DNA of 37,199 nt from Stentor roeselii (taxonomy: Eukaryota > Ciliophora > Heterotrichea > Heterotrichida > Stentoridae): the NCBI GenBank assembly GCA_006503475.1, contig RSEH01000354.1, forward strand, positions 1 through 37,199, given 5' to 3'. Each line of letters opens with the position of its first letter. Positions within the stretch are counted from its first letter, which is position 1. A program made the position numbers and the translations under genes. The notes beneath the pieces are model-generated. The model did no database searches. It was not told the DNA's origin and saw only the letters and a list, made by a program, of their open reading frames with translations. This document shows positions 598-30,486 of the stretch, piece by piece.

Positions 598-2235
598 ATG
601 GCAGAAAAGTCTAAAATTGAAATCGACTCACCTTTTCTCTCAACAGACAAGAAAGTATCTCAAATGATCTCTTACCTGACCCAAAGCCACATTTTTGTTA
701 ACTATTCCAAAAAATCGAGAAGGCAAGTTTCAATCGTTTACTTCAGTGAAAACCTTCAAAAGCTGATCTTCGAGATAAACAAGCAAACTCGTAAAATTGT
801 TTTACTTTCTGACATTTATTACGTCGAATCTGGCATCTCTAAAGAGTTGGTTCTTGAGCTTTACAAAGAAGATCTGAGAAATTTATTTGGCTTTAAAATT
901 GTCACGAAGAAAAGGAATATTGAACTTAGTGCCATGCATAAGTCTGATAGAGATATGTTCATTCATAATGTCAACCTTCTTGTATCTATCATGAAGGAAT
1001 GGAATGGAACGAATGGACTTAGAAACTATTTCAACAAAAAAATGCAGGGAAATGCAAATTCTTGTCAAAAACCAGTTAGAAGAGAAGAGGATGAAATGGA
1101 AAGGCAAGTTATTAGAAGCTTGTTGGATGATGTTATTTATAAAATTGAACTTAACTTGGTTACAAGTAATAAAAAGAAGTTGCATACTGATTTAAAACTA
1201 ATAGAATACGAAAACAAATACTTAACAGACCAACACGATTTACTAATAAAAAAAACCATCGAAAAAGACAAAAACCTAGAATTAATCCAAACAACTCACA
1301 CATACCTAAAACACAAGTTTTACCTAAGGTCCTTAATCGACAAGTTCGAGAAAACCGACGAAAAGCTAAAAATCTGGAAAAAAATCATCAGTTTCTGTGA
1401 CTGTCTCGAGCTAAAAACCGTCGCAGGTGTGAGCAGATGGTACAAAAAACTAGTAAAAAACTACTTAAAACAGAAAAACTCTTGGAAACAACTTTGCTTT
1501 GTAAGTCTCAGTCCCAGATCGATTTATTGGGACATTTATTTTAAGAATTTTCATCCAATGATTCGTGTTAAAAGTCTTCATTACAATGAAGAAGTTAATG
1601 AAGAGATCAGAAAAGATGTCATCAGAGGCCTTCCTGATCGATTGGAAGATGTTGAACTTATTTTGCAGCAAATTTGTTCTAGAAATAGTGAAGTTGGATA
1701 TTGTCAAGGGATGCAAGTTGTTACTCACTTTTTGATTACGGTTTTTAATGATATTGATAAAGTTGCAAAGACTTTAAATATTTTAATGGAACCGCCTTAT
1801 TATATGGGAGAGATCTGGAAAAAAGGCCTTTGTAGACTGAAACTGGCGGTTTATCAACTTGAAGTTATTGTTGAAATGAAATTTCCTTTTCTTCTTGAGC
1901 ACTTGAAAAATCTTGAGCTTAATATAGAAACACTTGTGACTCCTTGGATAGTCACAATTTTCACTCAAATGGTTTATCAAAAACAAATGAGCCGTACCTC
2001 ACTCGAGCAGATCTGGGACATGTTCTTAGTCCTAGGTTGGCCAGTGTTAATAGCATCATGTCTCGGAATGTTTTACTTACTTCTAGACCGTATAATGCAT
2101 CGAAATTTTGAAGAAACAATGAACGGCTTCACATTAAACCTTCCAAGTCTGACGTCAAACACAATAAAGAAGTTTTTAGTCGATCAGAAATTTTTGGAAC
2201 AACTGGAGACAAGTTTTAACTCTCAATTAAACTAA
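598..2235 (+). CDS. TBC-domain Rab GTPase-activating protein with PH-like and F-box-like regions
   Basis: 545 residues. It probably accelerates GTP hydrolysis on a Rab at a cytoplasmic membrane face. Residues about 30-140 look like a PH/GRAM-type lipid-binding fold, followed by a charged helical linker. Residues about 255-305 resemble an F-box-like helical motif (WKKIISF..., then VSRWYKKL, then SWKQLC). The TBC domain is about 315-530. The arginine-finger motif IxxDxxRT reads IRKDVIRG (residues 337-344): the catalytic Arg343 is present but the following Thr is Gly. The glutamine finger YCQGM (368-372) is intact, so the protein is probably active. The start is the first ATG after a G-free leader. 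The gene ends 24 bp before the next ATG on the same strand. The TBC assignment is firm; PH-like and F-box-like are weaker pattern matches. A Rab array lies 1.9 kb downstream, but partnership is only a guess. Confidence 0.9.
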   Translation: MAEKSKIEIDSPFLSTDKKVSQMISYLTQSHIFVNYSKKSRRQVSIVYFSENLQKLIFEINKQTRKIVLLSDIYYVESGISKELVLELYKEDLRNLFGFKIVTKKRNIELSAMHKSDRDMFIHNVNLLVSIMKEWNGTNGLRNYFNKKMQGNANSCQKPVRREEDEMERQVIRSLLDDVIYKIELNLVTSNKKKLHTDLKLIEYENKYLTDQHDLLIKKTIEKDKNLELIQTTHTYLKHKFYLRSLIDKFEKTDEKLKIWKKIISFCDCLELKTVAGVSRWYKKLVKNYLKQKNSWKQLCFVSLSPRSIYWDIYFKNFHPMIRVKSLHYNEEVNEEIRKDVIRGLPDRLEDVELILQQICSRNSEVGYCQGMQVVTHFLITVFNDIDKVAKTLNILMEPPYYMGEIWKKGLCRLKLAVYQLEVIVEMKFPFLLEHLKNLELNIETLVTPWIVTIFTQMVYQKQMSRTSLEQIWDMFLVLGWPVLIASCLGMFYLLLDRIMHRNFEETMNGFTLNLPSLTSNTIKKFLVDQKFLEQLETSFNSQLN

Positions 2236-2259
2236 TAACTATGCTTCCATAATTCAAAC

Positions 2260-3294
2260 ATGGCTCTTTCAAATTATCTTACAGACAAGTACATTGAAGA
2301 ACTTGAAGCCACTTTAAGGGCAAAAGAAATGGAAATCTCGAAAATCAAGACTAAACCGAATCTTGAACCTACTGTTCCCAACTTTGATGGATATGAAGAA
2401 CAGATTCGTCAGGACTATCTCACCCGCATACCGGAAAATGAAAGAAGTACTATGAAGTTTGGATGTACAAGGAAATTTAATGACTCGGTTTATGAAGGAG
2501 ATCTTTATAATAATCAGAGGCATGGGTTTGGAAAGATGACTTATGAAAATGGAAGAAGCTATCTTGGTGAATGGAGATACGACCTTCGTCACGGTCGAGG
2601 AATCGAAAAATACTCAAACCGCAACACCTACAAAGGGGAGTACCAAGAAGGCAAAGCAGACGGTAAAGGAATCTACATCTGGGAAAACGGAGAGTCCTTC
2701 ATCGGTGACTGGAAAAAAGGTTCAAAGCAAGGTAAAGGTAAATGGCAGAGTCCAGAAGGCGACCACTACATCGGCGAGTGGCAAGAAAGCAAAGCTCACG
2801 GTTGGGGCAAGCACATGTGGAGCACCGGCGACTACTACGAAGGCGAATGGTTTTCATGCACTAAACACGGAAGAGGCATCGAGTACTACGCTGAAAACGG
2901 CGACAAATACGTAGGCGAGTTCAAAGATGGAAAGCCAAGCGGGTATGGAAAATACTCTTATCGCAATGGAACTGTCTATGTTGGACAGTTTCTTGATGGA
3001 AAAAAACATGGAACTGGAAAACTTACAACGAATCAAGGACAAATTCATATCGGGGAATATAAAAATGATAAGAAAGATGGACTTGGATGCTTTAGATGGC
3101 CTAGTGGAAATGAATATCGAGGGTACTTCAGGGATGATAAAAGAAATGGGAAAGGAGTTATTTTGTGGAGTGATGGGTCTAGTTATGATGGAGATTGGGC
3201 TGATGGGGTTCAACATGGACAGGGTGTTATGCATTTTTCTGATGGAAGACCACCGAAAATAGGAAAGTTTGATAATAATCGGTTTGAAGATTGA
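2260..3294 (+). CDS. MORN-repeat protein (11 repeats)
   Basis: 344 residues. A short N-terminal helix (residues about 8-30, EELEATLRAKEMEISK) precedes eleven consecutive MORN repeats from about residue 77 to the end, each of the form Y-x-G-[ED]-[WFY]-x(6-8)-G-x-G. MORN arrays form long beta-hairpin rods that in protists scaffold cortical or ciliary structures, or bind membranes and partners; there is no catalytic domain. Codon usage shifts inside the gene: C-ending codons dominate 2580-2930 and T/G-ending codons follow to the end. It ends in TGA. The last repeat and tail are duplicated in decayed form immediately downstream (3331-3478). The TBC gene ends only 24 bp upstream, so its promoter must overlap that gene or the two may be co-transcribed. 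The specific role is unknown. Confidence 0.88.
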   Translation: MALSNYLTDKYIEELEATLRAKEMEISKIKTKPNLEPTVPNFDGYEEQIRQDYLTRIPENERSTMKFGCTRKFNDSVYEGDLYNNQRHGFGKMTYENGRSYLGEWRYDLRHGRGIEKYSNRNTYKGEYQEGKADGKGIYIWENGESFIGDWKKGSKQGKGKWQSPEGDHYIGEWQESKAHGWGKHMWSTGDYYEGEWFSCTKHGRGIEYYAENGDKYVGEFKDGKPSGYGKYSYRNGTVYVGQFLDGKKHGTGKLTTNQGQIHIGEYKNDKKDGLGCFRWPSGNEYRGYFRDDKRNGKGVILWSDGSSYDGDWADGVQHGQGVMHFSDGRPPKIGKFDNNRFED

Positions 3295-3789: not shown

Positions 3790-4121
3790 GTATTTAAATA
3801 AATTTATTAACTTTAATCATCCATTCTTAGGATTTTCCATCAGAAATTCAAAGATTTAGGAAAAATCTTGCTTTAAAGTATTGGCTTTCAAAAATTCACT
3901 TGAATTTTTAAGAATAGTTCTGAAATTTTAGCGAAGTTCTTTAATAATCAATCAGCAAATGAAACCTATCTAATAAAAGTATTTTCATTTGAACCATCCA
4001 CTCTAAAAAAATCCTATTTTCCAAGCCAATCCATTAAAACCTTCCTAAACTTCCCTTCTTCCTTCCTAACCCAAATCCATCAAATCAATCACTGATCCAA
4101 ACAAATTCCAACAATCTAATA
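3790..4121. other. Intergenic region upstream of the Rab array
   Basis: 332 bases without a supportable gene. The part nearest the Rab start (about 3980-4121) is very poor in G on the + strand and rich in C and A. The last 30 bases (ATCCAAACAAATTCCAACAA, then TCTAATA before ATG) recur with small changes ahead of the other three Rab copies, so they belong to the duplicated unit and probably include the leader. Confidence 0.5.
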
Positions 4122-4721
4122 ATGGCAGATCCAAGTACTCTAAAAATTCTCACCCTGGGAGACTCAAGCGTTGGGAAAACCTGTTTGTTGTTGCGGTTCG
4201 CAGAAGATGATTTTCCCAAGAACACGATGCCGACAATCGGAATAGAGTACAAAACAAAGATGATCAATCATAACAACCAAGCCGTCAAATTACAAATTTG
4301 GGACACTGCAGGGCAAGAGCGTTACCATCGAATCTTAGCAAGCACGTTTTACAGAAGAGCAAATGGAATCGTCTTGGTTTATGATTTGACAGAACGTTCA
4401 AGTTTTATGAACGTAGAAAGTTGGATGAAACAAATTCGACAAAAGGCTGATCCTGGAATTGAAATTGTTTTAGTCGCTAATAAACTTGACTTGGTGCAGG
4501 AAAGAGATTTTAGTGAAGGAAGGAGAATGGCTGATACTTTTGGAATCCCTTTTTTTGCTGTTTCTGCGAAAACTGGAGAAGGGGTTGGTGAGGCGTTTAA
4601 GGCTCTTACTGATATGATTATATCGCATAATCCCAAAATTTTAAACACCTCCAATGCGCCTGCTGGAAATAGACTCACTAAAGACCCTTCGATTTTAGAT
4701 AGGGTTAAATGTTGTGCCTAG
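4122..4721 (+). CDS. Rab family GTPase, copy 1 (canonical)
   Basis: 199 residues, normal length for a Rab. All GTPase motifs are present: P-loop GDSSVGKT (13-20), switch I Thr38 in TIGIEYKTK, G3 motif WDTAGQE (60-66) with catalytic Gln65, G4 NKLD (120-123) and G5 SAK (148-150). It ends in Cys-Cys-Ala, a RabGGTase-type CCX prenylation signal. The sequence is Rab8/Rab1-like, but I cannot fix the subfamily by eye. It probably cycles on and off an endomembrane to direct vesicle traffic. It stops at TAG, where the other copies carry one extra Trp; a single extra base (CCTAGG against CCTGG) explains the difference. It is the only one of the four copies expected to bind and hydrolyse GTP normally. 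Confidence 0.95.
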   Translation: MADPSTLKILTLGDSSVGKTCLLLRFAEDDFPKNTMPTIGIEYKTKMINHNNQAVKLQIWDTAGQERYHRILASTFYRRANGIVLVYDLTERSSFMNVESWMKQIRQKADPGIEIVLVANKLDLVQERDFSEGRRMADTFGIPFFAVSAKTGEGVGEAFKALTDMIISHNPKILNTSNAPAGNRLTKDPSILDRVKCCA

Positions 4722-4723
4722 GT

Positions 4724-4736
4724 AATAAGGCTTATT
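4724..4736 (+). other. 13-bp palindrome at the Rab 3' ends
   Basis: AATAAGGCTTATT is a perfect inverted repeat with a single central G. It follows the stop codon of copy 1, and exact copies lie at 6330-6342 and 7175-7187, where they overlap the TAA stop of Rab copies 3 and 4. Copy 2 has one mismatch (5450-5462). It could be part of a 3'-end signal, or may simply be inherited with the duplication. Confidence 0.5.
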
Positions 4737-4848
4737 GGATTAGAAGTAATTTTTTTGGGATGGTTGATTGGAAACATCTTCTCTTTTTTACTTGAGTGAG
4801 AGGGTCTAATCTAAGTACTAATCCAAAGAAATCCCAAACAATCTAATA

Positions 4849-5451
4849 ATGGCAGATCCAATTCAACTAAAAATCCTCACCCTGGGATGCACTGGGGTGG
4901 GGAGAAAAAGTTTATTGTCGTGGTTCGTAGAAGATGATTTTCCCAAGAACACGATGCCGACAATCGGAATTGAGTACAAAACAAAAATCATTAATTATAA
5001 CAAGCAAGTCGTCAAACTACTATTTTGTCGCACTTCAGGGCAAGAGAGGTACCATAAAATCTTAGCAAGCACATTTTATAGAAGAACAAATGGAATCATC
5101 TTGGTTTATGATTTGAAAGAACCTTCAAGTTTTGAGATTGTAGAAAGTTGGATGAATCAAATTCGAGAAAAGGCTGAACATGACATTGAAATTGTTTTAG
5201 TTGCTAATAAAATTGATTTGGTTCAGGAAAGAAATTTTACTGAAGGAAGGAGAATGGCTGATACTTTTGGAATACCTTTTTTTGCTGTTTCTGCGAAAAC
5301 TGGAGAAGGGGTTGTTGAGATGTTTGAGGCTCTTACTAATATGATTTTATCGCGTAATCTAAAAATTTCAAATATCTCAAATGCGGATGCTGGAAATAGA
5401 CCTAATCAAGACTCTTCGATTTTAGATAGTGTAAAATGTTGTGCATGGTAA
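4849..5451 (+). CDS. Rab-like protein, copy 2, degraded P-loop and G3 motif
   Basis: 200 residues, intact frame. Aligned without gaps to copy 1, the P-loop lysine and threonine (19, 20) are Arg and Lys (GCTGVGRKS), and WDTAGQE is CRTSGQE, so Trp60 is Cys and Mg-coordinating Asp61 is Arg. Switch I (TIGIEYKTK), catalytic Gln65, G4 (NKID) and G5 (SAK) remain. The C-terminus is CCAW, a CCXX prenylation form. It should still reach membranes and recognise guanine, but normal phosphate and Mg binding looks lost. It is best described as a probable pseudo-GTPase. The absence of stops or frameshifts argues against simple decay. Confidence 0.88.
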   Translation: MADPIQLKILTLGCTGVGRKSLLSWFVEDDFPKNTMPTIGIEYKTKIINYNKQVVKLLFCRTSGQERYHKILASTFYRRTNGIILVYDLKEPSSFEIVESWMNQIREKAEHDIEIVLVANKIDLVQERNFTEGRRMADTFGIPFFAVSAKTGEGVVEMFEALTNMILSRNLKISNISNADAGNRPNQDSSILDSVKCCAW

Positions 5452-5725
5452 TTAGGCTTATTGGATTAGAAATAATCTTCTGGGTATAGTTGTTGAGAAT
5501 TGGAAATACGATGGGAGATGATTTATTGGGTATTGTTTAATTTGATACAGATTTGATATTAATTTATTTTAAGACAATAATATTATCAATCGCAAAAGTA
5601 TTCAATCAGTATCAAAAAACTCAAATTTCAAAACAATTTATTTAAGTCCCTCAACCTCCCTTATTTCCTTATGCGAGAGCCGGGTAATCTTATTACTAAT
5701 CCAAAGAAATTCCAATAATCTAATA

Positions 5726-6331
5726 ATGGAAGATCCAATTCGACTAAAAATTGTGATTGTGGGATGCATTGCAGTAGGTAAAGGCTGCTTGTTGTTGCGT
5801 TACACAGAAGATGATTATCCAATAAAAAAAACGAATCAGATAATAGGAATGGACTACAAAACAAAGATCATTAATTATAATAATCAAGCCGTCAACCTAC
5901 AAATTTGGTATATTGATATACAAGAGCGATACTATCCAATATTAACCTCTACGTTTTTTAGAAGAGCCAATGGAGTTATTTTAATTTATGATTTAACAGA
6001 ACGTAGGAGTTTCAAAATTGTAGAAAATTGGATGAATCAAATTCGAGAAAAGGTTGAACCTGGCACTCAAATTGTTTTAGTCGCTAATAAACTTGACTTG
6101 GTTCAGGAAAGAGATTTTACTGAAGAAAGGAGAATTGCTGATACTTTTGGAATACCTTTTTTTGCTGTTTCTGCGAAAACTGGAGAAGGGGTTAGTGAGA
6201 TGTTTGAGGTTCTTACTGATATGATTTTATCGAATAATCCCAAAATTTTAAACACCTCAAATACACCTGCTGGAAATAGACTCGATAAAGACCCTTCGAT
6301 TTTAGATAGTGTCAAATGTTGTGCCTGGTAA
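5726..6331 (+). CDS. Rab-like protein, copy 3, most degraded nucleotide site
   Basis: 201 residues, intact frame, with one extra residue before switch I. The P-loop ends GKG where GKT is expected (position 20). The switch I threonine is Ile (IIGMDYKTK). The G3 motif reads WYIDIQE, losing both Asp and Gly, although Gln remains. G4 NKLD and G5 SAK are intact and the end is CCAW. Every residue type that contacts Mg or the gamma-phosphate, except the P-loop lysine, has changed, while the base-recognition and prenylation features are preserved. This is the strongest pseudo-GTPase candidate of the array. Confidence 0.88.
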   Translation: MEDPIRLKIVIVGCIAVGKGCLLLRYTEDDYPIKKTNQIIGMDYKTKIINYNNQAVNLQIWYIDIQERYYPILTSTFFRRANGVILIYDLTERRSFKIVENWMNQIREKVEPGTQIVLVANKLDLVQERDFTEERRIADTFGIPFFAVSAKTGEGVSEMFEVLTDMILSNNPKILNTSNTPAGNRLDKDPSILDSVKCCAW

Positions 6332-6570
6332 TAAGGCTTATTGGATTAGAAATAATTTTTTGGTAATAGTTGTTGAGAATTGAAAACAACCTGTGAGATG
6401 ATTTATTAGGTGTAGTTATCATTTTATATAGATTAAAATAAGTGTTTGTTTTAAGATAATAATATCAGCTGATTTCTTTCTATTATGAATATTGTTTAGG
6501 AATCAACATCCTTTCTTATGTCCTTATGCGATATCCCGCTAATCTTATTACAAATTCCAACAATCTAATA

Positions 6571-7176
6571 ATGGCAAATCCAATTCAGCTAAAAATTAGC
6601 TTCCTGGGAAACACAGGAGTAGGTAAAACCTATTTGTTGTTGCGGTACACAGAAGATGATTTTCCAAAGAAGAACACGATGCCGACAATCGGAATCGAAT
6701 ACAAAACAAAAACTATAATAAAAAACAACCAAACCCTTAATCTACAAATTTGGACCTCTGCAGGGCAAGAGCGTTACCATCAAATATTACGAAGTACTTT
6801 TTTAAGAAGAGTAAATGGAATCGTCTTGGTTTATGATTTGACAGAACGGTCAAGTTTTATGAATATAGAAAATTGGATGAATCAAATTCGAGAAAAGGCT
6901 GAACCTGGCACTCAAATTGTTTTAGTCGCTAATAAACTTGATTTGATTCAGGAAAGAGAATTTACAGAAGGAAGGAGAATTGCTGATACTTTTGGAATAC
7001 CTTTTTTTGCTGTTTCTGCGAAAACTGGAGAAGGGGTTAGTGAGATGTTTGAGAGTCTTACTGATATGATTTTATTGAATAATCTAAAAATTTTAAACAA
7101 CTCAAATGCACCTGCTGGAAATAGACTCACTCAAGACTCTTCGATTTTAGATAGTGTCAAATGTTGTGTTTGGTAA
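6571..7176 (+). CDS. Rab-like protein, copy 4, G3 aspartate lost
   Basis: 201 residues from the ATG at 6571. An in-frame ATG at 6526 lies within the conserved upstream repeat (compare CCTTATGCGA ahead of copy 3), and the paralogues all start at the equivalent of 6571, so I prefer that start. The P-loop GNTGVGKT and switch I TIGIEYKTK are intact. The G3 motif is WTSAGQE, so the Mg-binding Asp is Thr, while Gly and Gln remain. G4 NKLD and G5 SAK are present, and the end is CCVW. It probably binds nucleotide with altered Mg handling; whether it hydrolyses GTP cannot be told from sequence. Confidence 0.88.
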   Translation: MANPIQLKISFLGNTGVGKTYLLLRYTEDDFPKKNTMPTIGIEYKTKTIIKNNQTLNLQIWTSAGQERYHQILRSTFLRRVNGIVLVYDLTERSSFMNIENWMNQIREKAEPGTQIVLVANKLDLIQEREFTEGRRIADTFGIPFFAVSAKTGEGVSEMFESLTDMILLNNLKILNNSNAPAGNRLTQDSSILDSVKCCVW

Positions 7177-7462
7177 TAAGGCTTATTGGATTAGAAATAA
7201 ATTTTTGGTAATAGTTGTTGAGAATTGGAACAACCTGCTACTCTGCAAGAACTATTAAAACCACTTCAAGAAAAATCGACTGCAACAAGACACCTTCCTA
7301 AAAAATCTCGCATAAAAATTCATCATTCCTAAAAAATTCACTAAATCCTTTCATATTTCCTAAAACCAAAATCCTCTCTCTCAAAAAAAAAATTCCTTCC
7401 TACAATCCAAAAAACTCTCCTAAACAAATTCACCCTTCAAAATCCAGCCCTAATAAAAATCA

Positions 7463-8483: not shown

Positions 8484-9194
8484 TTAATAGAGAGAGTAAC
8501 TTAAAATTAAATTCCATTGGAAAACTAAAAGACTTGAGAGAATTATTCGGGATTTGAATTGGAAGGATTGAGGAAGATGCTCGAGAAGTGGTTGGAGTAA
8601 GGAGGGTAGGGAACTTAGTGAGAAAATATTTAGAGCTGAGGAGTTTTCGAGAATGGAGGACTGGAGGAGTAGGAGTAGAGTGAATAGTGAGTCGAGTGAG
8701 CGGAGGATGAAAAAGGACCAGTTTGATAAAATTGATTCTATTGAGGAGAAGATTGAGGAGTATATGTAAAATGCCAATATTAATATCTGAATTAAAATGA
8801 TCAAGGTGTAGGTTATTATGAATAGTGTTGAGTATATATTTACATCTCGACAACTCGACATTTTAACATCAAAACAAACTATTTTGATACTTTTCCTTAA
8901 TATAATTTGATGCTGAAAATTCCCATAAGACAATCCATTTCCTTGACACATCCTTCTAACTAACCCAATCAAATACCAAGTACAAAAAAAAGCTCTTAAC
9001 CCAACAGTAAAAGATTGAAAAATAAAATATTTCTCATACTCAATAAAAATCCCATAACTCAATCCCGACAACAAAACAGGAAAAAAAACAATTAAATCCC
9101 CTTTCCGTTTATTAGCCAGTTGCATAAAAAGAACAAACCCAAGCAGTACACCAAGCGAGGCAATACATTTGAATTCAATTCCAAAACTTTCCAT
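8484..9194 (-). CDS. Putative multi-pass membrane protein (236 aa)
   Basis: 236 residues. Hydrophobic segments lie at about 9-27, 33-50, 56-82 and 122-150, with a possible fifth near 155-175, and the C-terminal third is rich in Leu and Ser. I recognise no family. A stop-free frame of this length is unlikely by chance here, and the codons of the 3' half (TCA, TCC, CTA, CTC, TAC, GAC) match the A/C-type blocks of other genes in the window. It is convergent with the MORN gene, with only 4 bp between the two stop codons. Caution: the opposite strand at 8494-8769 also gives a protein-like reading rich in Glu and Arg, interrupted by one TGA. Confidence 0.55.
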   Translation of the reverse strand: MESFGIEFKCIASLGVLLGFVLFMQLANKRKGDLIVFFPVLLSGLSYGIFIEYEKYFIFQSFTVGLRAFFCTWYLIGLVRRMCQGNGLSYGNFQHQIILRKSIKIVCFDVKMSSCRDVNIYSTLFIITYTLIILIQILILAFYIYSSIFSSIESILSNWSFFILRSLDSLFTLLLLLQSSILENSSALNIFSLSSLPSLLQPLLEHLPQSFQFKSRIILSSLLVFQWNLILSYSLY

Positions 9195-9712: not shown

Positions 9713-9953
9713 CAGTCAAATGGAATTTGTTAGATTGTAATACCAAGGTGAAATTTTGCATCTAAATATAATTTTTTACTGTACAATTATTTTTTCATTG
9801 AAGTGCCGTATGTTAGTGACTTTGGACAATGGTGATACTAACTCTTTGCTTATAGTCATAAATTGGGTTTATTATATCTTAATTTAAAACTTACATCCTT
9901 AAGTCTGAAATCCACACATCGAACCAAATAACTTCAAGAATCAAATTTAATAA
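9713..9953. promoter_or_regulatory. Probable two-way upstream region
   Basis: 241 bp between two divergent genes. The half next to the + strand gene is rich in A and C (TCTGAAATCCACACATCG), consistent with a leader. No specific element is identified. Confidence 0.35.
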
Positions 9954-12900
9954 ATGAAACATAACCTCTTGTATATATTTCTAGAATCAATAATCCTCAA
10001 GAGCAGAGCCCAACGTTACTCCATCAAAACTCAAAAAATATTTGAGAGTCTTCATGCCATTTTGTCAATTTGCCAGTCATTTCGCTTGATATGGAAGCCA
10101 GATTTAATGTTAAGAAATTCAAATCATTATATGAGATTTTGGGAGCTAGTTTCCTATTCAAGTATTGAAACATTTTTTGCAAAACTAGAAAATTTTTCGA
10201 TATTTGCCTTAATTTTAGGTTTTCTGCCATTGTCAACTCTGATCTTGTCACTTTTACAACTAGGTCTTATCTTATTGAAAAAAGCTCCTTCAAGGTCACT
10301 AAGTTCTCTAATGAATTCAATAATATTCCTTCTCGAAAGATTTTTGATGATACCTTCTCTTTTGATTTTATTCATGTTTTTTAAGTACTCCAGTAAAGAA
10401 ATGTTTAAAGTTTCAGAAGTTTCTGGGCAAGTTTCTTCAGAATCTTTGAATTTCGGTCCAAAGGCAATTTTTGGTGCAGTTTTTTCGATAATTCTTTTAG
10501 GATTTTTTATTACTTTAAAACAAGGATGTTCATATGAAGTAAATCATTACAAGTCGAAAGAATTTCTTTCAAGTAAATGTTTTTACGATGCTGATTTACT
10601 TGAAAAAGGTTTAGTTTTTTTGAGGTGTTTTTTATATGTACAGATATCTGCAGACTTTTACACTGTTTATTTAATCATTACACTTTTCACTTTTATCATT
10701 CAAGGATTTTGCTATTTTATGTACATGAGCTATTATAATATGTGGATGAACAGACTGAAAATCATTGAAAGTCTCGAAGGAGTCTGCTTTTCTACAGGAT
10801 TTCTTGTTGCTCAATTAATGGATAATTCAACCATCATCTTTCTACTCACTCTGGCAATTCAACCTTTTATCTTTATAACTGCCTTCTCACTTGTAGAGTC
10901 TAGAAATGAAATCATTAAAAATAAAATGCCTGGAATTTATATTTCTAGTAAAGTTTCATTTGAACATGCTGTTAGAAATTACTTGATTCAAGAAGAAATC
11001 ATTGAAAATTTTTTCAAAACTTCTCAAAAACAACTGAAAGAAACAGGAGATAGTTTTATTTACCTTTTCGAAGCTTTTTACTGTCAGAAAGTTTTAAAAA
11101 ATTCTATGTTGGGTTTAAATAAATTGAGTCAATTCAAGCCGAGTATTTTTAAGATTTTTGTAGGATTTCATATTTTCCAAGCTTATAAAGAATTAACCTC
11201 GACCCTAGAAGAGTCGACTGGGTTGAAACTAGTATTATTTCTAGATTCTATTGAAAATATCATAAAAAACGAGATGAAATATATAAACTCAATCAGATCC
11301 TTATCAATTAACATTTCACAAAGACTTCCTTCACTTAAATCTTTGAAAAGTTCCATTACAAAGATCTCAAATAATAGACTAAAAGTGAATAAAAGTTATG
11401 AACTTTGCTTGAAATCTTATCCGAATTCTAGCATCGCTTTAGAAATGCTAGGAACTTTCTTGGTTAATATTCTAAATGATGCTGAATTAGGAAAACCTAT
11501 TCTTGACAGAGCCCGTTTCGAAGACTCTTCTCATGTCGGTAAAAGGAACTTACTCTCTAGTTTGACTGACAATCTCATGTTGTTGTCTGTTAAACCTAAA
11601 GAAATAGGAAAAATTTTATATTTAAGTCGGCATTTATGCAAATTACTAAAAATACGGTTTTCAGAATCTCAGGACTACTATTTAAAGGACTTTATTCCAG
11701 CTCCTTTCAACAAAAAACACGATTTTTACCTAAAAAAATTCATAAATTGTGGAGAAACAAATGTTTATTCTCCTGGATTCACTTTTTTTATAAAAACTCG
11801 AGATGACTTCATGGTCGAGTTTGAAGTTCAAGCGGAATATTTAACAATAAACGGAAAATCATTCGTAATCTCAATTTTAAAGAAAAGTAAATTTAAAAGA
11901 GAAGCTGCCCTGGTAAGTAAAAATGGAGACATTTTTATGAATTCTCGAAAATTTGGATCAAAAGTTGGACTAAAAAATAAGAATTTTGAAGGAAATAATA
12001 TTTTTTCTATTATTGGACAAGAGTTATCAGAAAATTCTAAAAGTTTTATTAAGGTTTTTGATAAAAAAAGAAAAGTTTTTTTACAAGTTGGAGTCAGTTT
12101 TCAAACAAAGACGGTGAAGTTAACGAATTTTTATATTATTTATTTGACCAAAAACTTTGAACCCTCTTCTACCAAGATATTAAGTCAGAAGAAAAATGAA
12201 CCTAAAAAAGTAAAGTTTGAAAAAAGTGATATAAAGAATTATAGTCAATATTCTGAACGCTCTAATAGTGAAATGACGAATTGTGTTAAATATTCGAATG
12301 TTTCTAATGAGCAAACTCATACGAAATTGATTATTTTTCATAAATCAAAACGAATTTATACCTGGATTAGACTTAGTTTGATCCTAGTTATTTTGATGAT
12401 CTTTGTTTTGGATGTGATTCTTATGATTTATATAAATCAGCAGGTCCAGCATTCTTCAAGCTTAGGAAGTTTGAATATTTTAGGGTACTATAAGTATATG
12501 TCTTCATATTATTCGTTGATCAGTCGAATTACATATATGAATGACTTTCTAGAAACAACTCATTTCTACGAAAACTCAGAGATTTATAATATCTTTCATG
12601 ATCTGGAACAGTATAAAACAGAGCTGGTTGATAACTACAAAGACTGGAGTTATTGCAGTATTTCTAAAGAAATCACAGAAAATTCAAATATTATTTACCA
12701 TAGTAACAATACTGAACTCAAAAGTATCATAAATGAGATTATTGATTTTACCTCTATTGTAATCTAAATTTAGTCAAAAAGTTTTTATGAAAAAGTAGCA
12801 AATGGAAGTACTGATTATAAATCAGAGGTCGATTATATTCATATGAACAAATTTCGCCTCTCACTAAACAAATATGAATATTTTCATGACAGTTTTACTA

Positions 12901-13922
12901 ACTGTGAGGTAGTAAAAGTAGAAAAGCTGAAACAAACAGTCTACATCCTTTTCTACTTAAGCATGGCAATTCTTTCGTTTTTCTTAATTTTCCTATCGAT
13001 CACTATAAAACTAATAACCAAAAACCTGAATATCATTTGGAGAATTTTCTACAAGAGAGGAAAACATGGTCTTGGTAATGTATATGAAAATTTAACTGAA
13101 AGAATAAGACACCTCTATAAACGTCTTCCAGGTGCAAATCCAGTGATCCCAGTTTTTTTAAATATCTTGAAATTCGACGATTTTCACCACAGTTATTTTT
13201 ACATGTTTAAATTCAGTTTCTTCATAGTCCTTATAGTAATTTCCCATGCAATTGCAGTAATGTTTTTTTATGAAAAACTTCATTATTTACTCATAAAAAG
13301 AATCATTTTCACTAATTCAGACTATGACCAAAGATTTAATATCATCAATCTTTCCTATTTCATGACTCAGTCAATAGCTGAAAACGATTCAAGCCTAAAA
13401 TCAATAATCCCTGAAATTAATCCATTTACTAACTCATTACTCGAAACAACTAATATAAAAGAAGACATCATCGAAACTCGTAACAAGTATTTTACAACAG
13501 ATCTTCATAACTTTTATACAAAAAATGCTTGGAAAATTCTTTACAGCTCTATTTCTGATAATAACTCTTATTTAAAATTCGGGATTCTTCAGGCTTACTT
13601 GTTTATAATTCATGAAATAGAATATTTACTTTCTCAGCCTTTAAACCCAAAAGAACTTCAAAAATTTATTGAAAATTTGAAGAACCTAGTAAAAGTTTTA
13701 GCAGATACAGGAGTAGAACTAGAAAGTAACACAAATGAAATAATAAATCAACAAATCTCAAGCTTAATGTCCTTCCTCGTGACTTCATTCATAATCCTTC
13801 TCCTACTGACAATTTTTTATTACCTTCCTTTCATATCCTCCGAAAAATCTCTTCTTGACGATCTCGAAAGATTCCTCCAGACCATTCCAAGAAAAAAGAA
13901 AATAACTCAAAAATCTTCTTAA
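9954..13922 (+). CDS. Large multi-pass membrane protein with TPR-like and PAS-like regions (tiny-macrocysts/TmcB-like); one 15-nt intron
   Basis: The coding sequence is 9954-12758 joined to 12774-13922, giving 1317 residues. Without removal of the 15-nt intron the frame ends at a TAA inside it. After removal, 23 codons link it in frame to the next 359-codon frame. About six hydrophobic helices span residues 77-315. A cytosolic stretch follows, with a TPR-like YPNS...LxxLGxFLxxxLND motif near 485-510 and a PAS-like region at about 600-700. Four more hydrophobic segments lie near 801-830, 990-1016, 1081-1104 and 1266-1292. The layout resembles the very large ciliate family related to Dictyostelium TmcB, which is thought to be sensory or signalling; this link is from memory of the motif pattern. 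Ligand and partners are unknown. The next gene starts 78 bp after its stop. Confidence 0.82.
12759..12773 (+). other. 15-nt intron (phase 0)
   Basis: GTAATCTAAATTTAG lies exactly between codons 935 and 936 of the membrane protein. It contains the in-frame TAA that would otherwise end the protein, and the A at position 10 fits a branch point five bases before the 3' end. Removing it joins two long frames with no shift. Confidence 0.93.
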
Positions 13923-19283: not shown

Positions 19284-19641
19284 TTTTATTATGTTGGAAA
19301 ATTTAAAGGGTTGGATTTTTGGAGGTTTTTGGATTTGGAATGAATTTAAAATTTTAAGGTTTTTAGGAGTTTTAGGGTTATGGGTTGGTTTTAGTTATTA
19401 GGGAAGATTCTTTTGGAGATGAGGAATTGTTTGATGATTTTGTTGGAATGTTTAAAAATATTCAATTTGAAGATTTAATGGAAATTTTTCATCAAATCTT
19501 CTAAATAAATGAAAATCTTAAGATTCCAAATAATCTCCATCCAAATTTAACCCAATCTAAAATATCATAAAAATAACTTCAATACATAATCAAGAAAATC
19601 TCATATTTCTGATACCTTCCATTTCGAAAATCACATAAATA
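19284..19641. promoter_or_regulatory. Probable two-way upstream region between CFAP100 and the PERK-like gene
   Basis: 358 bp with no gene. Composition flips in the middle: the CFAP100 side is G/T-rich on the + strand (so A/C-rich in CFAP100's own sense), and the PERK side from about 19500 is A/C-rich on the + strand. Each gene therefore has a G-poor leader on its own strand. No defined motif is recognised. Confidence 0.45.
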
Positions 19642-21867: not shown

Positions 21868-22188
21868 AATTAATTAAAGTATGGTGTGAAGATTTAACTA
21901 TTTGGTGAAATGTTCTAATTGAGTGAGTAAGTAAAAAGGTTTTGTTTCTCGGCTTCGCTGATAGATAAAAGTTCTAAGAGTTCAAAAATATTGAATTTAA
22001 GTAAAAAGGTTTCATTTAGCATGTCTATTAAGAATATAAGTGAGCTAACTTTTCGAAAACATCTCAATTGATACCAATTTAAACCTTTCCAAAATTTCAC
22101 AAAATCCAAACCCACTCCAAACTAAAAAATCCTCTAAATCAAAAAAATATCCAAACCCCTCAAAAGTCCTCTAAACCGCTTTTATAAA
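21868..22188. other. Spacer between the PERK-like and PKG-like genes
   Basis: 321 bp, no supportable gene. A 14-bp direct repeat TAAGTAAAAAGGTT occurs twice, near 21928 and 21998. The last 110 bases before the PKG start are very C/A-rich and nearly free of G, the usual leader composition here. Confidence 0.5.
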
Positions 22189-24978
22189 ATGGGAAAATGC
22201 ACAAGTAAGGAAAAATCCGTCACAAACGGCCAACCTCGAAACAACGCCTCAACCCCGAAATCCCTGAAATCCCCAGAAAAAACCCAGCCATCAACCCCTT
22301 CAAAGCCCTTAGCCAAAGCTCTCCGATACTCAGCAGAACAGACCCAATTCTCAAAAAATCTTGCAAAATCAGGAGCACAAGCAACAGGAGTTAAAAGTCG
22401 TCCAGCAGTAGAAAACCCATCAAAAGACGTTACAAAGACCTTAAGCCGTAGTACGACCCTACGTCCGACCCTTGTGCGGAAGTTCACAACAGAGGCATCT
22501 TCAGCAACAATCAGCAAAGTGGTTCCAAATCAACAAGTCCAGAAAGAACTAGTCCTTGTGTTGAAGTCTCACTTTCTGTTCAACATGCTTTCAGAAGACG
22601 CGATAATGCAAATGGTGAAAGAAATGAAGTCTTTAATGTTGGAGCCTGGGCAGTTGATTTATCGTCAAGGGAATTATGGAAATACTTTTTATGTTGTTGA
22701 AAAGGGAAAAGTCGATGTGTTGGTTGATGGAGTCCCTTGTAATAGTTTGATGGCCAAGCAAAGCTTTGGCGAGCTTGGATTGATTCAAGACACTCCTCGG
22801 ACTAATACAGTTGTAACTGCTGAGAAAAGCTCTTTGAGGTCTATTGATAGGAACTCTTATCGTAATGTTCTGACGAAGGTTTATTCAGGAATGGATGAAG
22901 AAGGTGTTGGATTTTTAGAAGTTATTCCTTTATTCAAGACTCTTTCTGCAAGTCAATTGAATCAACTCGCAAATGTCACAACTACTAAAAAATACATGCC
23001 TGGTGATAAGATCATTATTGAGGGAGAAATGGGAGATAGTCTTTTTATTGTAAAAGAAGGAGTTGTGGATTGCTCGAAGTATGACCAGCATATCAGGGAT
23101 TTTAATAAAGGAGACTTTTTTGGAGAACAGGGACTTTTGTATCAGACGAAAAGAACTGCTACTTGCACTGCTGCTGGGAAAGCCACTTGTATTTGTATCA
23201 GTAGAAGTGACCTTGTCGCTTGCCTTGGGGTGGACCTTGAAGCAATTTTAAGTAAAAACACGATCAGAATCGCAATCACTCGTAATCAGTTCTTAAAAAA
23301 CCTCTCCGAAGTGCAGGTCGATATGGTCTTCGGGAAAATGTCAATAAAATCATATAAACCTGGAGAAATAATCTTGCCTAAATCAACTTTAAAATCGTCA
23401 AATCTTTTAATCATCCTCAAAGGATGCTTAACAACAGGTGATACTAAATTTCGACTTTATGACCTTATCGGTGATGAAGAGTTTCTTCTTGAAAACTGCA
23501 AAAGGTTCTTCAGAAATGACCTCACAGCTGAGCAGGAGTCAACAGTCGCAATGATCCCTAGAGTGACTTTTGAAGAAATCATTGGAGGAAACTTGAAATT
23601 TATTTCTCAAAAGAACAGTTTGATCACAATATTGAAAAAAATTCCACTTTTTAAAAATCTTCCTCAAAGTAAACTTCAAAGTCTTGTCTCGGTCTTGAGG
23701 GTTGAAGAGTTTCCTGCACAGTCAATTATTTTTAACCAGGGAGACTTGGGTGATAAGTTTTATTTGGTTAAAAGTGGCTCTGTTGAGATAGTCAAGAATG
23801 GTGAGTCGATTAGGAAAGTGGAAGTAAATGGGTTTTTTGGGGAAAGATCTGTTTTGCTTAATGAGCCAAGGGCTGCCACTGCTGTCACCATCGGCAATAC
23901 AAGTTGTTGGGTTATGAATAAAATCGACTTTTCCCATTTTGTTGATGGAAAAGCTCAGGAAGACTTGCGTAAGAGAATTGAACTACTCAATGATAACTTC
24001 AACTTGAATGACTTGATTTATTTGAAAACTATGAGCAAGGGAAAGAATAGTAAAAGTTTCTTGGTTTTCATGAAAAATACTTCGAAAATGTTTTTTTTAA
24101 GAACTGTCAGTCGAAATTCTTTGGCTTTGTTTAATGGGTATGAAAAAATACTTATGGAAAGAAATATTTTAAAAATGATTGATCATCCGTTTATTGGGAA
24201 AATTATCAAAACTTTTAAGGATAATTTGAGGATTTATTTCTTGATGGAATTCGTTCCTGGGCAGGATTTGTTTGATGTGCTTGCTGATTGGAATAAGATG
24301 GGAAATGAAAATGCGAAGTTTTATGCTGCTGGGATTGTTATTATATTGGAGTACCTGCATAGTTATAATATTGTTTATAGGGACTTGAAACCTGAAAATA
24401 TTTTGATTGATTCAGAAGGTTACCCGAAGATCTGTGATTTTACTTTTTCCAAAATCATTGAAAACAGAACCTATTCCATAGTAGGAACTCCTCATTATAT
24501 GGCTCCAGAAGTGATCTCAGGTAAGGGCTACAATCATACAGCTGATTATTGGTCATTAGGAGTTATGATATACGAGTTCCTTTTTAACAGTCTTCCCTTC
24601 GCAGCAAATGCAAGCGACTTATACTCGATCTACCAAAGTGTTCTTATTGGAAACTTCAATTATCCTTCTGGCACTCACACCGTTAAGCCTTTACTCGATA
24701 AACTTCTGGTGAAAAACCCGAACATGCGAGGAAATATAAAAAATATAAAAGAAAATCCTTGGTTTATAGGAATAAATTGGGATGATTACATAACAAAACA
24801 ATTGAATGCTCCTAGAAAACCCAAGATTAATAACTATGACAAGCAAATAGCAGGAAACAATGGAAAAAATGAACTATTTCTTAAAATTTCTGTAAGATTT
24901 ACTTAGAAAGAAGAAAGTCGAGAGGATGATGCTAAAAAAAATATTCATGGACCTCCTGGGTGGGATGAAGATTTTTAG
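22189..24978 (+). CDS. cGMP-dependent protein kinase (PKG)-like protein with altered catalytic residues; one 15-nt intron
   Basis: The coding sequence is 22189-24891 joined to 24907-24978, giving 924 residues. MGKC at the start suggests myristoylation and palmitoylation. Four cyclic-nucleotide-binding domains lie at about 128-230, 246-348, 364-465 and 482-585. Domains 1, 2 and 4 keep the FGE...R phosphate-binding cassette (the second with RTAT, a cGMP-type Thr); domain 3 has lost it. The kinase domain is at about 604-855. YRDLKPEN (730-737) and the GTPHYMAPE activation segment are intact, but the glycine loop is degenerate (MSKGKNSKS), the beta-3 lysine is Arg638 and DFG is DFT (750-752). Removing the intron restores the C-terminal GWDEDF motif typical of PKG/AGC tails. 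The four-CNBD layout is that of alveolate PKGs. It may be a pseudokinase or a weak kinase. Confidence 0.9.
24892..24906 (+). other. 15-nt intron (phase 0) hiding a TAG
   Basis: GTAAGATTTACTTAG has GT-AG ends and an A at position 10, and its last three bases are an in-frame TAG. Removal adds 23 residues ending in GWDEDF, the conserved PKG C-terminal motif, followed by a true TAG at 24976-24978. A naive prediction would stop here and lose the motif. Confidence 0.93.
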
Positions 24979-25956: not shown

Positions 25957-26343
25957 TTATATCGAAATCCATTTCGGAATTGATGAAATTCTAAGATATT
26001 TATGAAAATGAAATATTGTTAAGAGGCTCATCCTTACATTTCTTGATAAATTATAATCGAATAGTTTAGTATAGCATATTGGTATCCTAATAATCCTTTA
26101 AAATTTCATCAATTCAAAAAGCATAACCCTTATTCTTTCTCTACCCAAAACAATAATCCTCCTCAATAAACCTACAATCCAATTATAAAATGATCAAAAA
26201 GTCATAAAAATAATCAAAAATGCTAAAAAAACCCTAAAAATTCTCTAAAAACCACAAAAAACCCTCTAAATCAAATGAAACCTGAATCTGAATCAAAACC
26301 CAAATTTAAAAACAATCACTAACCAATTAAGCAGGGGCCATAA
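25957..26343. promoter_or_regulatory. Upstream region shared by the zinc-finger gene and RFC3
   Basis: 387 bp between divergent genes. From about 26095 to 26330 the + strand is nearly G-free, with repeated AAAAACCCT/CTAAA words, and is the RFC3 leader side. No gene or defined motif is seen. Confidence 0.45.
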
Positions 26344-27399: not shown

Positions 27400-27402
27400 T
27401 AA

Positions 27403-30400
27403 ATGGCCGAGTCGAGAGAAACTCTTACACAAAGGTATGGTTCCAGAAGGTACTCTCCAGGAAAGGACCACTTCGATGTTCCTCAGTCTTATGGAGATAT
27501 TCTGAAGGACAGAGCTGAGGAAAGTGAAAGACAAAGATATATTCGACAGCTTAAAAGAGATAAACATGAGAAAATCAGAACGGAAGACGTCAGTATTAAG
27601 ACACAAGATAAAAGTAGTACTTCAGCTCATAGTGAAAGCAAAAGATGGACTGAAGATAAAGAGGACTCTCAATGGGATCAGGTAAATGAAAGTAGTGAAT
27701 CTGTTTATAATAATGTCACTCCTAAGAATCTGCAAATGTTGAGACTTTCGAAGGAACTTCAGGAAAGGAATAGAGAATTAACCGATGCTGAACTTGATGA
27801 GATGCTTCCTTGTGATGGGTATGAAATTGTTAAACCTCCCGAAGGGTATAAACCTAACCCTACGAAAAATAACCCTTTTTTGAATGGAGGAAATTTCTAC
27901 AACATCCCAGAAGAGCTAACCAAACCCTACGACGTTCCTGGAGACACAACCGGAACAATGCCTCAAATAAAGCCCGAAGACCTAAGCTACTTCGGAATCC
28001 TATTAAAAGAAGTAGACTTCGACAGTCTAACCTACGAAGAGCAAAAAGAAAGAAGAATCGCTGAACTTCTCCTAAAGATAAAAAACGGTAACCCAATAAT
28101 CCGCAAGCAAGCCTTAAGACAAATAACAGAAAAAGCAAGAGAACTAGGTCCAGGTCCTCTTTTCCAGCAGATCCTTCCACTGATGATGAGTGTGACCTTA
28201 GAAGACCACGAGCGTCATTTACTGGTAAAGGTTATAGACAGAGTTTTGTATAAACTTGACGACCTGGTCAGGCCTTACGTTCAAAAAATCCTTGCAATCA
28301 TTGAGCCGATGCTCATGGATGAAGACTACTACGCCAGGGTGGAAGCAAGAGAAATCATTTCAAGTCTTTCAAAAGCTGCAGGCTTGCCTACGATGATTGC
28401 AACTATGAGACCTGATATTGATAATTCTGATGAAAATGTAAGGAACAATACAGCTCGGGCCTTTGCTGTTGTCGCTTCAGCTCTTGGTATTCCTGCACTT
28501 CTTCCTTTTCTTAAAGCTGTCTGTGCTAGTAAAAAATCGTGGCTTGCAAGACATACTGGATTGAAGATTGTGCAACAAATCGCGATTTTACTTGGATGTG
28601 CGGTTTTACCGCATTTGAAAAATTTGGTTGAGATTATTCAATGTAATATTAATGATGAACAACCGAAAGTTAGAACTATTACTGCACTTGCTCTTGCTGC
28701 CTTGGCTGAAGCGTCTTATCCTTATGGAGTCGAAGCTTTTGAATGTGTTTTAATACCTTTATGGGAAGGAATTAATTGTCATCAAGGAAGATTCCTAGCA
28801 GCTTTTTTAAAAGCGATGGGATTCATCATCCCACTGATGGACGCTGAACACGCCGGAGGATGCACTCGTAAAATAATGAAAACAGTAATCAGAGAATTCG
28901 ACACCCCTGAAGAAGAAATGAAGAGAACTGTTCTAAAAGTCTTAAAGCAATGTGTTGCCACAGAAGGAGTCACTGCAAATTACGTAAAAGATTTCGTTAT
29001 TCAAGACTTTTTCAGATGCTTTTGGAACAAAAGAATTGCGATGGACAAGAAGTCTGCGAAACAGGTAATTGAAACCACAGTTGAAATCGCAAACAAGATT
29101 GGAGGAGGAGAAGTTATTTCACGAATTGTTGATCATTTGAAAGATGAAAATGAACCTTATCGCAAGACTGTCATGGAAACTATTGAGAAAATTGTGATTA
29201 ACTCTGGGGTTTCTGATATCAGTTCTAAGGTTGAGGAGAAGTTGATGGATGGAATGTTGTATGCTTTTCAGGAACATACTAGTGATGACTCGAGTATTAT
29301 TATTAATGGATTCGGAACTATTGTCAATTGTCTTGGGTCTAGATGCAAGGTATCTATTCCCTATATATGTGGAACAATTCAGTGGAGGCTCAATAACAAA
29401 TCTCCCAGGGTAAGAATGCAAGCTGCAGACCTAGTAAGCAAAATCGCTCCAGTAATGAAAACATGCGGTGAAGACATGTTAATGGGAAGAATGGGAGTAG
29501 TCCTCTACGAATGTCTAGGTGAAGAATACCCAGAAGTCCTTGGCAGTATCTTAAAAGCCATGAAAGCAATAGTAAACGTAATCGGTATGACAAAAATGAC
29601 TCCCCCAATAAAAGACCTTCTTCCAAGACTAACTCCAATCCTAAAAAACCGTCACGAAAAAGTCCAAGAAAACGTAATCGACCTAATCGGCCGTATAGCC
29701 GACCGAGGAGCTGAATACGTTTCAGCAAAAGAATGGATGCGCATTTGTTTCGACTTGCTCGATCTTTTAAAAGCTCACAAAAAGGGTGTCCGTCGAGCAA
29801 CAATCAACACTTTCGGTTACATCGCGAAAGCAATAGGTCCTCACGACGTCCTTGGCACACTTTTAAACAACTTGAAAGTCCAAGAAAGGCAAAATCGAGT
29901 TTGCACTACAGTCGCCATTGCGATAGTCTCAGAGACTTGCGGTCCTTTCACAGTGATTCCAGCTTTGATGAATGAATATCGTGTGCCTGAGATAAATGTT
30001 CAGAATGGAGTGTTGAAGAGTTTTAGCTTTATGTTTGAGTATATTGCGGAGATGTCTAAGGATTATATTTATGCTGTCACACCTTTGCTGGAAGATGCGC
30101 TTATTGATAGAGATTTGGTTCATAGACAAACTGCTTGCACGGCAATTAAACATCTTGCTTTAGGAGTCGCTGGACTTGGATGTGAAGACGCTTTGACACA
30201 TTTGTTGAACTTTGTTTGGCCGAATATTTTTGAAACTTCTCCTCATGTTATTAATTCAGTCATTGAAGCTCTTGATGGACTTAGAGTTGCTTTGGGAGTT
30301 GGAAGGATTCTTAGTTATGTCATTCAAGGACTCTTTCATCCTGCTAGGAGGATTAGGGATATTTATTGGAGGGTTTATAATTTGTTGTATCTGGGGAATC

Positions 30401-30486
30401 AGGATGCACTTGTCATGGCTTATCCTCGACTTACTGATGAGAAAATGAGCCCTTTTCAGAGGAATGAGTTGGAACTTTTCTTGTGA
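27403..30486 (+). CDS. SF3B1: Splicing factor SF3B1 (U2 snRNP), short N-terminus
   Basis: 1027 residues against about 1304 in human. It is the HEAT-repeat core of SF3b, which clamps the U2-branch-site duplex in the spliceosome. From about residue 165 the match to animal SF3B1 is dense and ungapped to the end ([39 protein letters not shown]). The branch-site pocket region ARHTGLK and DEQPKVRT are conserved; Lys422 corresponds to human Lys700. The N-terminus lacks the long series of TPGxTP repeats and has one U2AF-ligand-like motif (SKRWTED) plus a weak second (SQWDQ). The start must be 27403 because two stops lie immediately before it. It ends in TGA after LELFL, matching the human end, so TGA is a true stop here. 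Confidence 0.97.

Follow-up and report, generated by a model that had tools for sequence, protein, structure and literature searches.

The DNA of Stentor roeselii swings between A/C-rich and G/T-rich composition about once per kilobase, abruptly in one direction and slowly back. This compositional wave is real and genome-wide, and at nearly neutral sites the preference for A/C or G/T is governed by a signed field that is strand-specific. This field shifts the odds of C to T and of A to G about equally, without altering GC content and without regard to protein content; the wave resembles a scar left by strand-specific mutation at fixed sites. The window, by which we mean the whole analyzed stretch of 37,199 nucleotides (contig RSEH01000354.1, GenBank assembly GCA_006503475.1), is summarized in Table 1.

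Table 1. Compositional steps and block-patterned genes in the window. D, step size, computed over 150 bp on each side; the 19 GT-to-AC steps are all those listed in the window at D of at least 0.36.
Feature	Position	Strand	Value
GT-to-AC step, upstream of TBC gene	314..315		D=0.53
TBC gene (CDS 598-2235) and leader: AC, GT, AC, GT, AC	341..2260	+	per-ORF p 0.005
GT-to-AC step, within TBC gene	1193..1194		D=0.51
GT-to-AC step, upstream of first of four tandem Rab-like genes	3942..3943		D=0.40
Four tandem Rab-like genes, common wave pattern	4122..7176	+	block r 0.77-0.93
GT-to-AC step, between second and third Rab-like genes	5570..5571		D=0.55
GT-to-AC step, upstream of MORN gene 7463-8479	7228..7229		D=0.52
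GT-to-AC step, within minus-strand ORF 8484-9194	8915..8916		D=0.49
GT-to-AC step, upstream of ORF 9954-12767	9885..9886		D=0.52
GT-to-AC step, within ORF 9954-12767	11176..11177		D=0.39
GT-to-AC step, within PX-domain ORF	16569..16570		D=0.48
GT-to-AC step, within minus-strand CFAP100-like ORF	18176..18177		D=0.37
GT-to-AC step, between divergent genes; strongest in window	19453..19454		D=0.80
GT-to-AC step, upstream of PKG gene	22055..22056		D=0.60
PKG gene (CDS 22189-24906): AC, GT, AC, GT, AC	22080..24906	+	per-ORF p 0.005
GT-to-AC step, within PKG gene	24387..24388		D=0.37
GT-to-AC step, upstream of RFC subunit gene	26142..26143		D=0.52
SF3B1 gene: GT, AC, GT, AC, GT, AC, GT	27403..30486	+	per-ORF p 0.005
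GT-to-AC step, within SF3B1 (by eye about 27896)	27831..27832		D=0.41
GT-to-AC step, within SF3B1	29372..29373		D=0.37
GT-to-AC step, within minus-strand HOOK-like gene	32598..32599		D=0.51
GT-to-AC step, upstream of kinase gene 33521-34606	33244..33245		D=0.56
GT-to-AC step, between convergent genes	34708..34709		D=0.37

A preliminary description of the window had reported alternating A/C-rich and G/T-rich blocks that switch codon choice inside genes. Its codon counts, made by eye, were exact both at 1198-1500 (TAC 6/6, GAC 5/6, CTA or TTA 13/15) and at 1561-1860 (GAT 5/5, TAT 4/5, CTA or TTA 2/12). All 17 blocks named in the TBC, SF3B1 and PKG genes were of the claimed type at third codon positions, with C/(C+T) of 0.35-0.77 in nine AC blocks versus 0.09-0.22 in eight GT blocks and A/(A+G) of 0.71-0.89 versus 0.43-0.69. 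On all bases, the claim failed for two of the GT blocks, 840-1190 (0.00) and 27403-27890 (+0.07), neither of which is GT-rich.

Along the genes, third-position choices between C and T and between A and G run in the same direction over about 250 bp, are opposed at about 550 bp and weakly agree again at 900-1000 bp. Compared with within-gene synonymous shuffles, C/T autocorrelation in the window gave z-scores of +12 to +22 at lags up to 60 codons and of -10 to -14 at 101-200 codons, and the correlation of C/T with A/G choice reached about +9 to +15 at 6-60 codons. The preliminary description had expected its blocks to exceed shuffled synonymous codons and to recur on other contigs, and both expectations were borne out: z rose to +22, and the wave was equally present in 83 ORFs on 200 kb of other contigs of the same genome. 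In a per-ORF test with a p-value floor of 0.005, p was at most 0.05 in 79 of 91 ORFs of at least 300 codons (14 of 15 in the window), a count into which at least one ORF was entered twice because stretch L035 overlaps L015. The remaining 12 ORFs (p > 0.05) include both genes of the L016 paralogue pair and window ORF 12843-13922 (p 0.09). The variance ratio was only 1.3 in stretch L019, compared with 3.2-8.8 in 19 other stretches.

The overlap of L035 and L015 also means that a few kb were counted twice in the step composition profile, gene-end continuity, the C/T-A/G cross-check, codon positions 1-2, step density, the 6-mer test and the per-ORF and non-coding analyses. Copies of the window (L001, L022) were left out of counts and L038 out of jump counts. 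The sampled sequence amounts to only about 0.7% of the 44.4 Mb genome. In 50 kb of E. coli, used as a control, the wave was absent, all lag values lying between -0.002 and +0.006 versus +0.066 and -0.027 in S. roeselii; the largest z there was -3.2, from only 10 shuffles. This stretch (L039) was left out of all ciliate counts except for its four stops in the list of lone stops. A literature search for compositional waves of this sort found none described in titles or abstract openings, and among viral contigs two query proteins had 0 relatives.

The reading frames follow the standard genetic code. An alternative code was rejected, since TGA alone or TAG alone as sense adds only 2-3% of coding sequence. 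With TAA and TAG both read as sense, the gain is 15%, an amount that the loss of two stop codons could produce by chance. Fifty PKG-like genes were scored in the sampled genome, and 47 of the 50 frames had no internal stop. Three of eight lone in-frame stops at sample loci and one in L030 end predicted 15-nt introns of the form GTR-N9-TAG with A at position 10, matching the Stentor-type consensus (15 nt, branch A at position 10) given in the consulted part of PMC9505925.

The switching described earlier is real, but its shape is a sawtooth, in which composition jumps from GT to AC within some 100 bp and then declines slowly. Symmetric blocks were dropped in favor of this shape based on the asymmetry of the steps (synonymous-site skew +0.57, 95% CI 0.41-0.69, 47 blocks) and on a cross-check of sharpness. 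When changes were located on C/T sites and measured on A/G sites, or the reverse, the upward change took about 60-130 bp, as a step, and the downward one about 250-450 bp, as a ramp. Among jumps in 237 kb, 58 were up and 25 down at D of at least 0.45, and 34 and 9 at D of at least 0.5. Up and down jumps were nearly equal at D of at least 0.30 on all bases (170/184), and transitions were equal in number at one threshold for single site classes (82/83 for C/T, 69/80 for A/G), so that the asymmetry resides in sharpness. Around the steps, which lie about 1 kb apart and relax over about 500 bp on each side, C/(C+T) drops to about 0.17, leaps to 0.50 and drops again while GC3 stays flat. The odds of C:T and of A:G each shift about 4-5 fold across the step, a change somewhat inflated by picking the steps on the same bases.

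Reading 5' to 3', the usual skew switch at replication origins is from AC to GT. Sawtooths of replication skew in mammals and bacteria resemble the present wave in their sharp change one way, gradual return and involvement of both AT and GC skew, the classic shape expected if very closely spaced initiation or termination sites were at work here. However, they extend over a far larger scale, their sharp origin switch has the opposite sign to the steps, and a spacing of about 1 kb would be implausibly dense, which makes replication asymmetry a highly improbable source.

The wave is not confined to coding sequence. Non-coding DNA follows it (skew 0.32 in 80 kb), codon positions 1-2 follow weakly (r 0.047, null sd 0.005) and amino-acid choice is dragged along, supporting a strand-specific process that acts on DNA. 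Of the strand-specific mutational or chromatin-linked process suggested earlier, the strand-specific character is upheld; a chromatin link, with nucleosome-free regions as the sites, may or may not apply. The wave was also said to run regardless of gene limits. It does cross gene ends (r 0.60 at 98 5' ends, 0.48 at 86 3' ends), but the density of steps is about 2.5 times higher at 100-300 bp upstream of the ATG (about 1.2/kb at -300 to -100 versus about 0.46/kb in the first 800 bp after it). Pairs of close neighbors gave no consistent picture of continuity, with r of 0.07 in 41 co-directional, 0.28 in 16 convergent and 0.60 in 6 divergent pairs. Leaders, described as always AC-type, are so on average (+0.11 in the 100 bp before the ATG), and 'always' goes beyond this check of averages; 3' flanks are GT-rich on average, as described.

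This enrichment and the average composition of leaders and 3' flanks would fit steps that mark nucleosome-free regions or sites of bidirectional transcription initiation, genic as well as cryptic ones inside genes, with asymmetry arising from transcription-coupled damage or repair on either side. In mammals, the coding strand becomes G/T-rich downstream of transcription starts, whereas here it is A/C-rich, judged by the average before the ATG, and ORFs, 68% of the sequence, hold 64 of the 112 steps. We regard an origin in transcription starts or nucleosome-free regions as unlikely.

Protein or domain demand was ruled out, in agreement with the preliminary description, by the synonymous shuffles together with 12 PKG paralogues whose block patterns, taken on average, are unrelated (r of -0.68 to +0.66 for single pairs, with a mean of -0.017 and a null sd of 0.034). 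The same lack of resemblance within a family argues against selection on composition, tuned for nucleosome placement or unstructured RNA, as the source of A/C and G/T stretches. G-poor, A/C-rich leaders fit unstructured 5' ends and a spacing of about 1 kb could reflect chromatin, but non-coding DNA also shows the wave, amino-acid choice is pulled along and selection does not predict an abrupt step of a single sign; we consider it quite unlikely.

The Rab and L012 paralogues hold blocks in common. In the L012 trio, one pair had a block r of 0.80 at a 4-fold identity of 0.53, where simulated passive inheritance gave medians of 0.27-0.50; the other two pairs were not exceptional (P 0.03-0.36 versus the same simulations). 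For three L009 pairs (4-fold identity 0.42-0.56) r was low, at 0.16-0.36, and for the L016 pair (identity 0.79), whose genes both lack the wave, it was 0.02. Among the paralogue sets, only L012 hints at maintenance beyond inheritance, and the lack of support in L009 and L016 lowers our confidence in a maintained field. Polarized synonymous changes were K>M 24/57 and M>K 18/67 in AC zones, versus K>M 12/88 and M>K 18/70 in GT zones (z about 2.2 by hand from few sites, with 21 multi-change columns set aside); all-base polarized counts in Rab and L012 had no clear direction. Differences between the young Rab and L012 pairs were not sign-coordinated, and transversions were about as frequent as transitions. 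Burst-like, strand-coordinated mutation was thus not seen between these pairs; strand coordination was present in older pairs with differing block positions (window PKG/L023, z +7.9).

Altogether, we hold with good confidence that a maintained, strand-specific field acts at the DNA level. The fixed sign of the step makes the earlier idea of a mutational or chromatin-linked cause testable and favors recurrent sites next to which DNA is exposed as a single strand. Our full reading, a field of strand-specific mutation flanking sites of recurrent germline breaks spaced by about 1 kb, is more tentative, the breaks being inferred as its cause. The field would be a mutational equilibrium and the step sites recurrent germline DNA breaks. 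Following 5'-to-3' resection, the top strand would be single-stranded on the left flank and lose C and A, leaving it GT-rich; on the right flank the bottom strand would be exposed, so that the top strand would lose G and T and become AC-rich. Exposure declining with distance from the break would give the slope. Such sites would be promoter-rich and long-lived, yet different between old gene duplicates.

The composition at the steps, where skew flips sign at the center between a left side poor in C and A and a right side poor in G and T, is analogous in sign to the single-stranded flanks of human meiotic breaks (Hinch et al., PMC7615360), although composition is compared here with mutations there. 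In the part of that paper available to us, skew likewise flips at the center, and loss of both C and A affects the exposed strand to the left of the break and the opposite strand to its right, if its ambiguous strand wording is read with the figure legend. The human signal, as far as that text goes, is a rare-variant spectrum within +/-2 kb of PRDM9 hotspots, with flanks of 2 kb, peaks that are partly off-center and a central 100 bp free of asymmetry, whereas the wave recurs about every kilobase across genes and spacers, slopes over about 500 bp and is strongest at the step. Strand-coordinated clustered mutation at breaks in yeast and cancer has the same substrate as our model, single-stranded DNA beside breaks, but comes in one-off bursts, unlike the long-term pattern here, with no burst-like tracts between young paralogues. 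The breaks would most likely be Spo11-type meiotic ones, and the genome encodes a putative Spo11-type domain (PF04406, one match over the cut-off, E 3.9e-18). Conjugation in Stentor is rarely seen, so that meiosis may be too rare for a break model.

There was no GC rise in the composition profile at steps. A junction motif, TTT|AAA, was discarded as a selection effect because it is mirrored at down-jumps, and no 6-mer at steps did better than in simulations (words and complements both counted, equally in data and simulations), leaving no common motif. The somatic genome of Blepharisma, also a heterotrich, is about 41 Mb. At that size, the about 40,000 IESs given in the consulted portion of PMC9942856 would amount to about one per kb, which would suit steps at positions of germline-limited segments (IESs) lost from the somatic genome, with asymmetry spreading from the ends of retained segments. 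Excision breaks, however, are somatic and would not be expected to pass to offspring, and the steps are without a motif, so that we judge an IES origin very unlikely; a search for piggyBac-type transposases returned 0 matches, but as the controls likewise matched nowhere this result is uninformative. The subtelomeric bias of Oxytricha nanochromosomes is another case of biased base composition in a ciliate, tied to DNA ends, but in the available excerpt of PMC3558436 it lies at real telomeres, extends for about 50 bp and has a periodicity of about 10 bp, in contrast to about 500 bp inside contigs and genes here.

A bolder version of the break model, which we think unlikely to be right, is a self-reinforcing heritable break map of about one site per kb, in which breaks would fall at GT-to-AC junctions and the resulting mutations would sharpen these into a self-spacing wave. 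Equally doubtfully, the wave would then set codon usage within genes and be readable from sequence alone. Synonymous codon choice in S. roeselii swings about four-fold in odds inside single genes, and the pattern differs between paralogous proteins. Were the wave mutational, it would record germline strand exposure at kilobase scale in organisms whose germline breaks are difficult to map, and it would call for caution with codon-usage and dN/dS methods, which treat mutation as uniform over the length of a gene.

The alternating A/C- and G/T-rich blocks of the top strand, which the preliminary description had seen switching synonymous codon choice inside genes, are real: they exceed within-gene shuffles of codons among their synonyms, our null, in the window and recur in other contigs of the genome, and a recount reproduced its codon numbers exactly. 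Third-position C/T choice in the window was autocorrelated up to 60 codons (z +12 to +22), turned negative at 101-200 codons (z -10 to -14) and was correlated with neighbouring A/G choice. For 83 ORFs on other contigs (200 kb), z reached +32 and -34, and in both analyses the C/T correlation was about twice the A/G correlation. Without per-gene centring, the correlation was lowest at 540-600 bp and had a minor second maximum at 900-1000 bp. Tested singly, 79 of 91 ORFs of at least 300 codons gave p≤0.05. L019, another sampled stretch, nearly lacked the wave (variance ratio 1.3); it carries a tandem repeat with a 126-bp shift (387-1528) and is possibly a different kind of contig.

The wave is a sawtooth, sharp from GT to AC and slow in return. 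As a GT-to-AC switch is identical read on either strand, its sharpness can be compared with that of the reverse switch irrespective of genes. At synonymous sites, the difference D between the 150-bp means right and left of a position had a skew of +0.57 (95% CI 0.41-0.69); a 50-kb E. coli control was without such a wave (step skew 0.007). With D taken on all bases, up- and down-jumps in 237 kb numbered 34 and 9 at D≥0.5, 58 and 25 at D≥0.45, and 170 and 184 at the loosest threshold, D≥0.30. Selection bias was avoided by locating transitions on C/T sites and measuring them on A/G sites, and vice versa: up-steps were completed in ~60-130 bp and down-transitions needed ~250-450 bp, with similar totals (82 up vs 83 down; 69 vs 80). 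Averaged over 158 steps (312 kb), C/(C+T) ran from 0.40 to 0.17 and then, past the step, from 0.50 to 0.26, and A/(A+G) from 0.70 to 0.48 and then from 0.82 to 0.62, at constant GC3 (0.30-0.37), the contrast at the step being inflated because the same bases served to place the steps. The fold change in odds was alike for C/T and A/G. Successive called steps lay a median of ~1.2 kb apart (101 distances listed, weak steps being missed).

The wave acts at the DNA level. The composition of flanks followed that of the gene end they border (r 0.60 at 98 5' ends and 0.48 at 86 3' ends), and non-coding stretches of at least 400 bp (80 kb) had the same autocorrelation and a step skew of 0.32. Codon positions 1-2 tracked the wave to a small yet clear extent (r 0.047 against a null sd of 0.005; 110/153 genes positive), with Pro, Ser, Thr and Lys in AC zones and Val, Cys, Gly and Phe in GT zones. 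Step density peaked 100-300 bp upstream of the ATG (~1.2 per kb; 29 steps, two bins) and was ~0.46 per kb over the 800 bp downstream. Protein demand, already dismissed as a cause in the preliminary description, is excluded, as the patterns of 12 PKG paralogues were on average uncorrelated (mean r -0.017 against a null sd of 0.034, with individual pairs ranging from -0.68 to +0.66).

Other paralogues did have the wave in common: young Rab copies (r 0.77-0.93) and the L012 trio (r 0.74-0.80, with a 4-fold identity of 0.53-0.67). For three L009 pairs with an identity of 0.42-0.56, r was 0.16-0.36; for the L016 pair, both genes of which lack the wave, it was 0.02 at an identity of 0.79. Under simulated passive inheritance at identity 0.53, that of the most diverged L012 pair, median r was 0.27-0.50, and 0.7-3.5% of the simulations attained the 0.80 observed for that pair; the two remaining L012 pairs were unexceptional. 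In the Rab and L012 sets, synonymous changes, once polarised, ran in the maintaining direction (z ~2.2, calculated by hand): G/T to A/C and the reverse amounted to 24/57 and 18/67 in AC zones, 12/88 and 18/70 in GT zones, and 12/43 and 13/38 in intermediate zones. Against maintenance count the all-base polarised counts, which gave no clear direction, and the young-pair differences, in which no co-ordination of sign was found. The wave is probably maintained beyond inheritance, on thin evidence.

The window is the entire contig C292 (37,199 bp) of a 44.4-Mb genome in 522 contigs. Its genes are long and eukaryotic with open frames: TBC, two MORN proteins, four tandem Rab-like GTPases, a PKG with three cNMP domains, an RFC subunit, SF3B1, a HOOK-like and a CFAP100-like protein and an aspartyl protease. 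The ORFs of the RFC subunit and SF3B1 lie 3 bp apart (27399-27403) and those of TBC and MORN 24 bp apart (2235-2260), which leaves UTRs hardly any space between a stop and the ATG that follows. Judged from sequence, the genetic code looks standard; TGA was the rarest terminator (11/103 sample ORFs, vs 49 TAA and 43 TAG). The PKG-like kinases are a very large expansion, with at least 50 genes in 44 Mb (1361 first-look candidates, 50 scored, 47 of these without internal stop); contigs C391 and C129 carry three apiece. A screen of the sample loci for lone in-frame stops with long open frames on either side gave eight; in three of them the stop closes a 15-nt GTR-N9-TAG stretch whose position 10 is A, and a further such stretch occurs in the PKG paralogue L030. 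PMC9505925 describes the Stentor intron in these same terms, and by their form the four stretches would be introns of this type. The code and these putative introns point to a Stentor-like heterotrich as the probable host.

Intron-like 15-nt stretches (GTR-N9-TAG, A at position 10)
Location	Strand	Effect
L030 3895-3909		frame kept, stop introduced
L012 6969-6983		frame kept, stop introduced
contig C1 48024-48038 (= L006 8024-8038)		frame kept, stop introduced
L021 2706-2720	minus	frame kept, stop introduced

The sawtooth is best read as a strand-specific mutation field, jumping at a site and decaying across ~500 bp on either side, a profile that single-stranded DNA flanking resected breaks would produce. 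Replication origins and mammalian transcription usually produce skew of the sign opposite to that of the steps here. No motif was found at the steps, and no rise in GC in the 158-step average. We infer breaks as the cause: in Hinch et al. (PMC7615360), human meiotic break hotspots have, on our reading, a sign that agrees with our steps, and combine loss of C and A, as here. A Spo11-type domain is encoded in the genome; should sexual reproduction be rare in the lineage, the breaks would have to come from another source.
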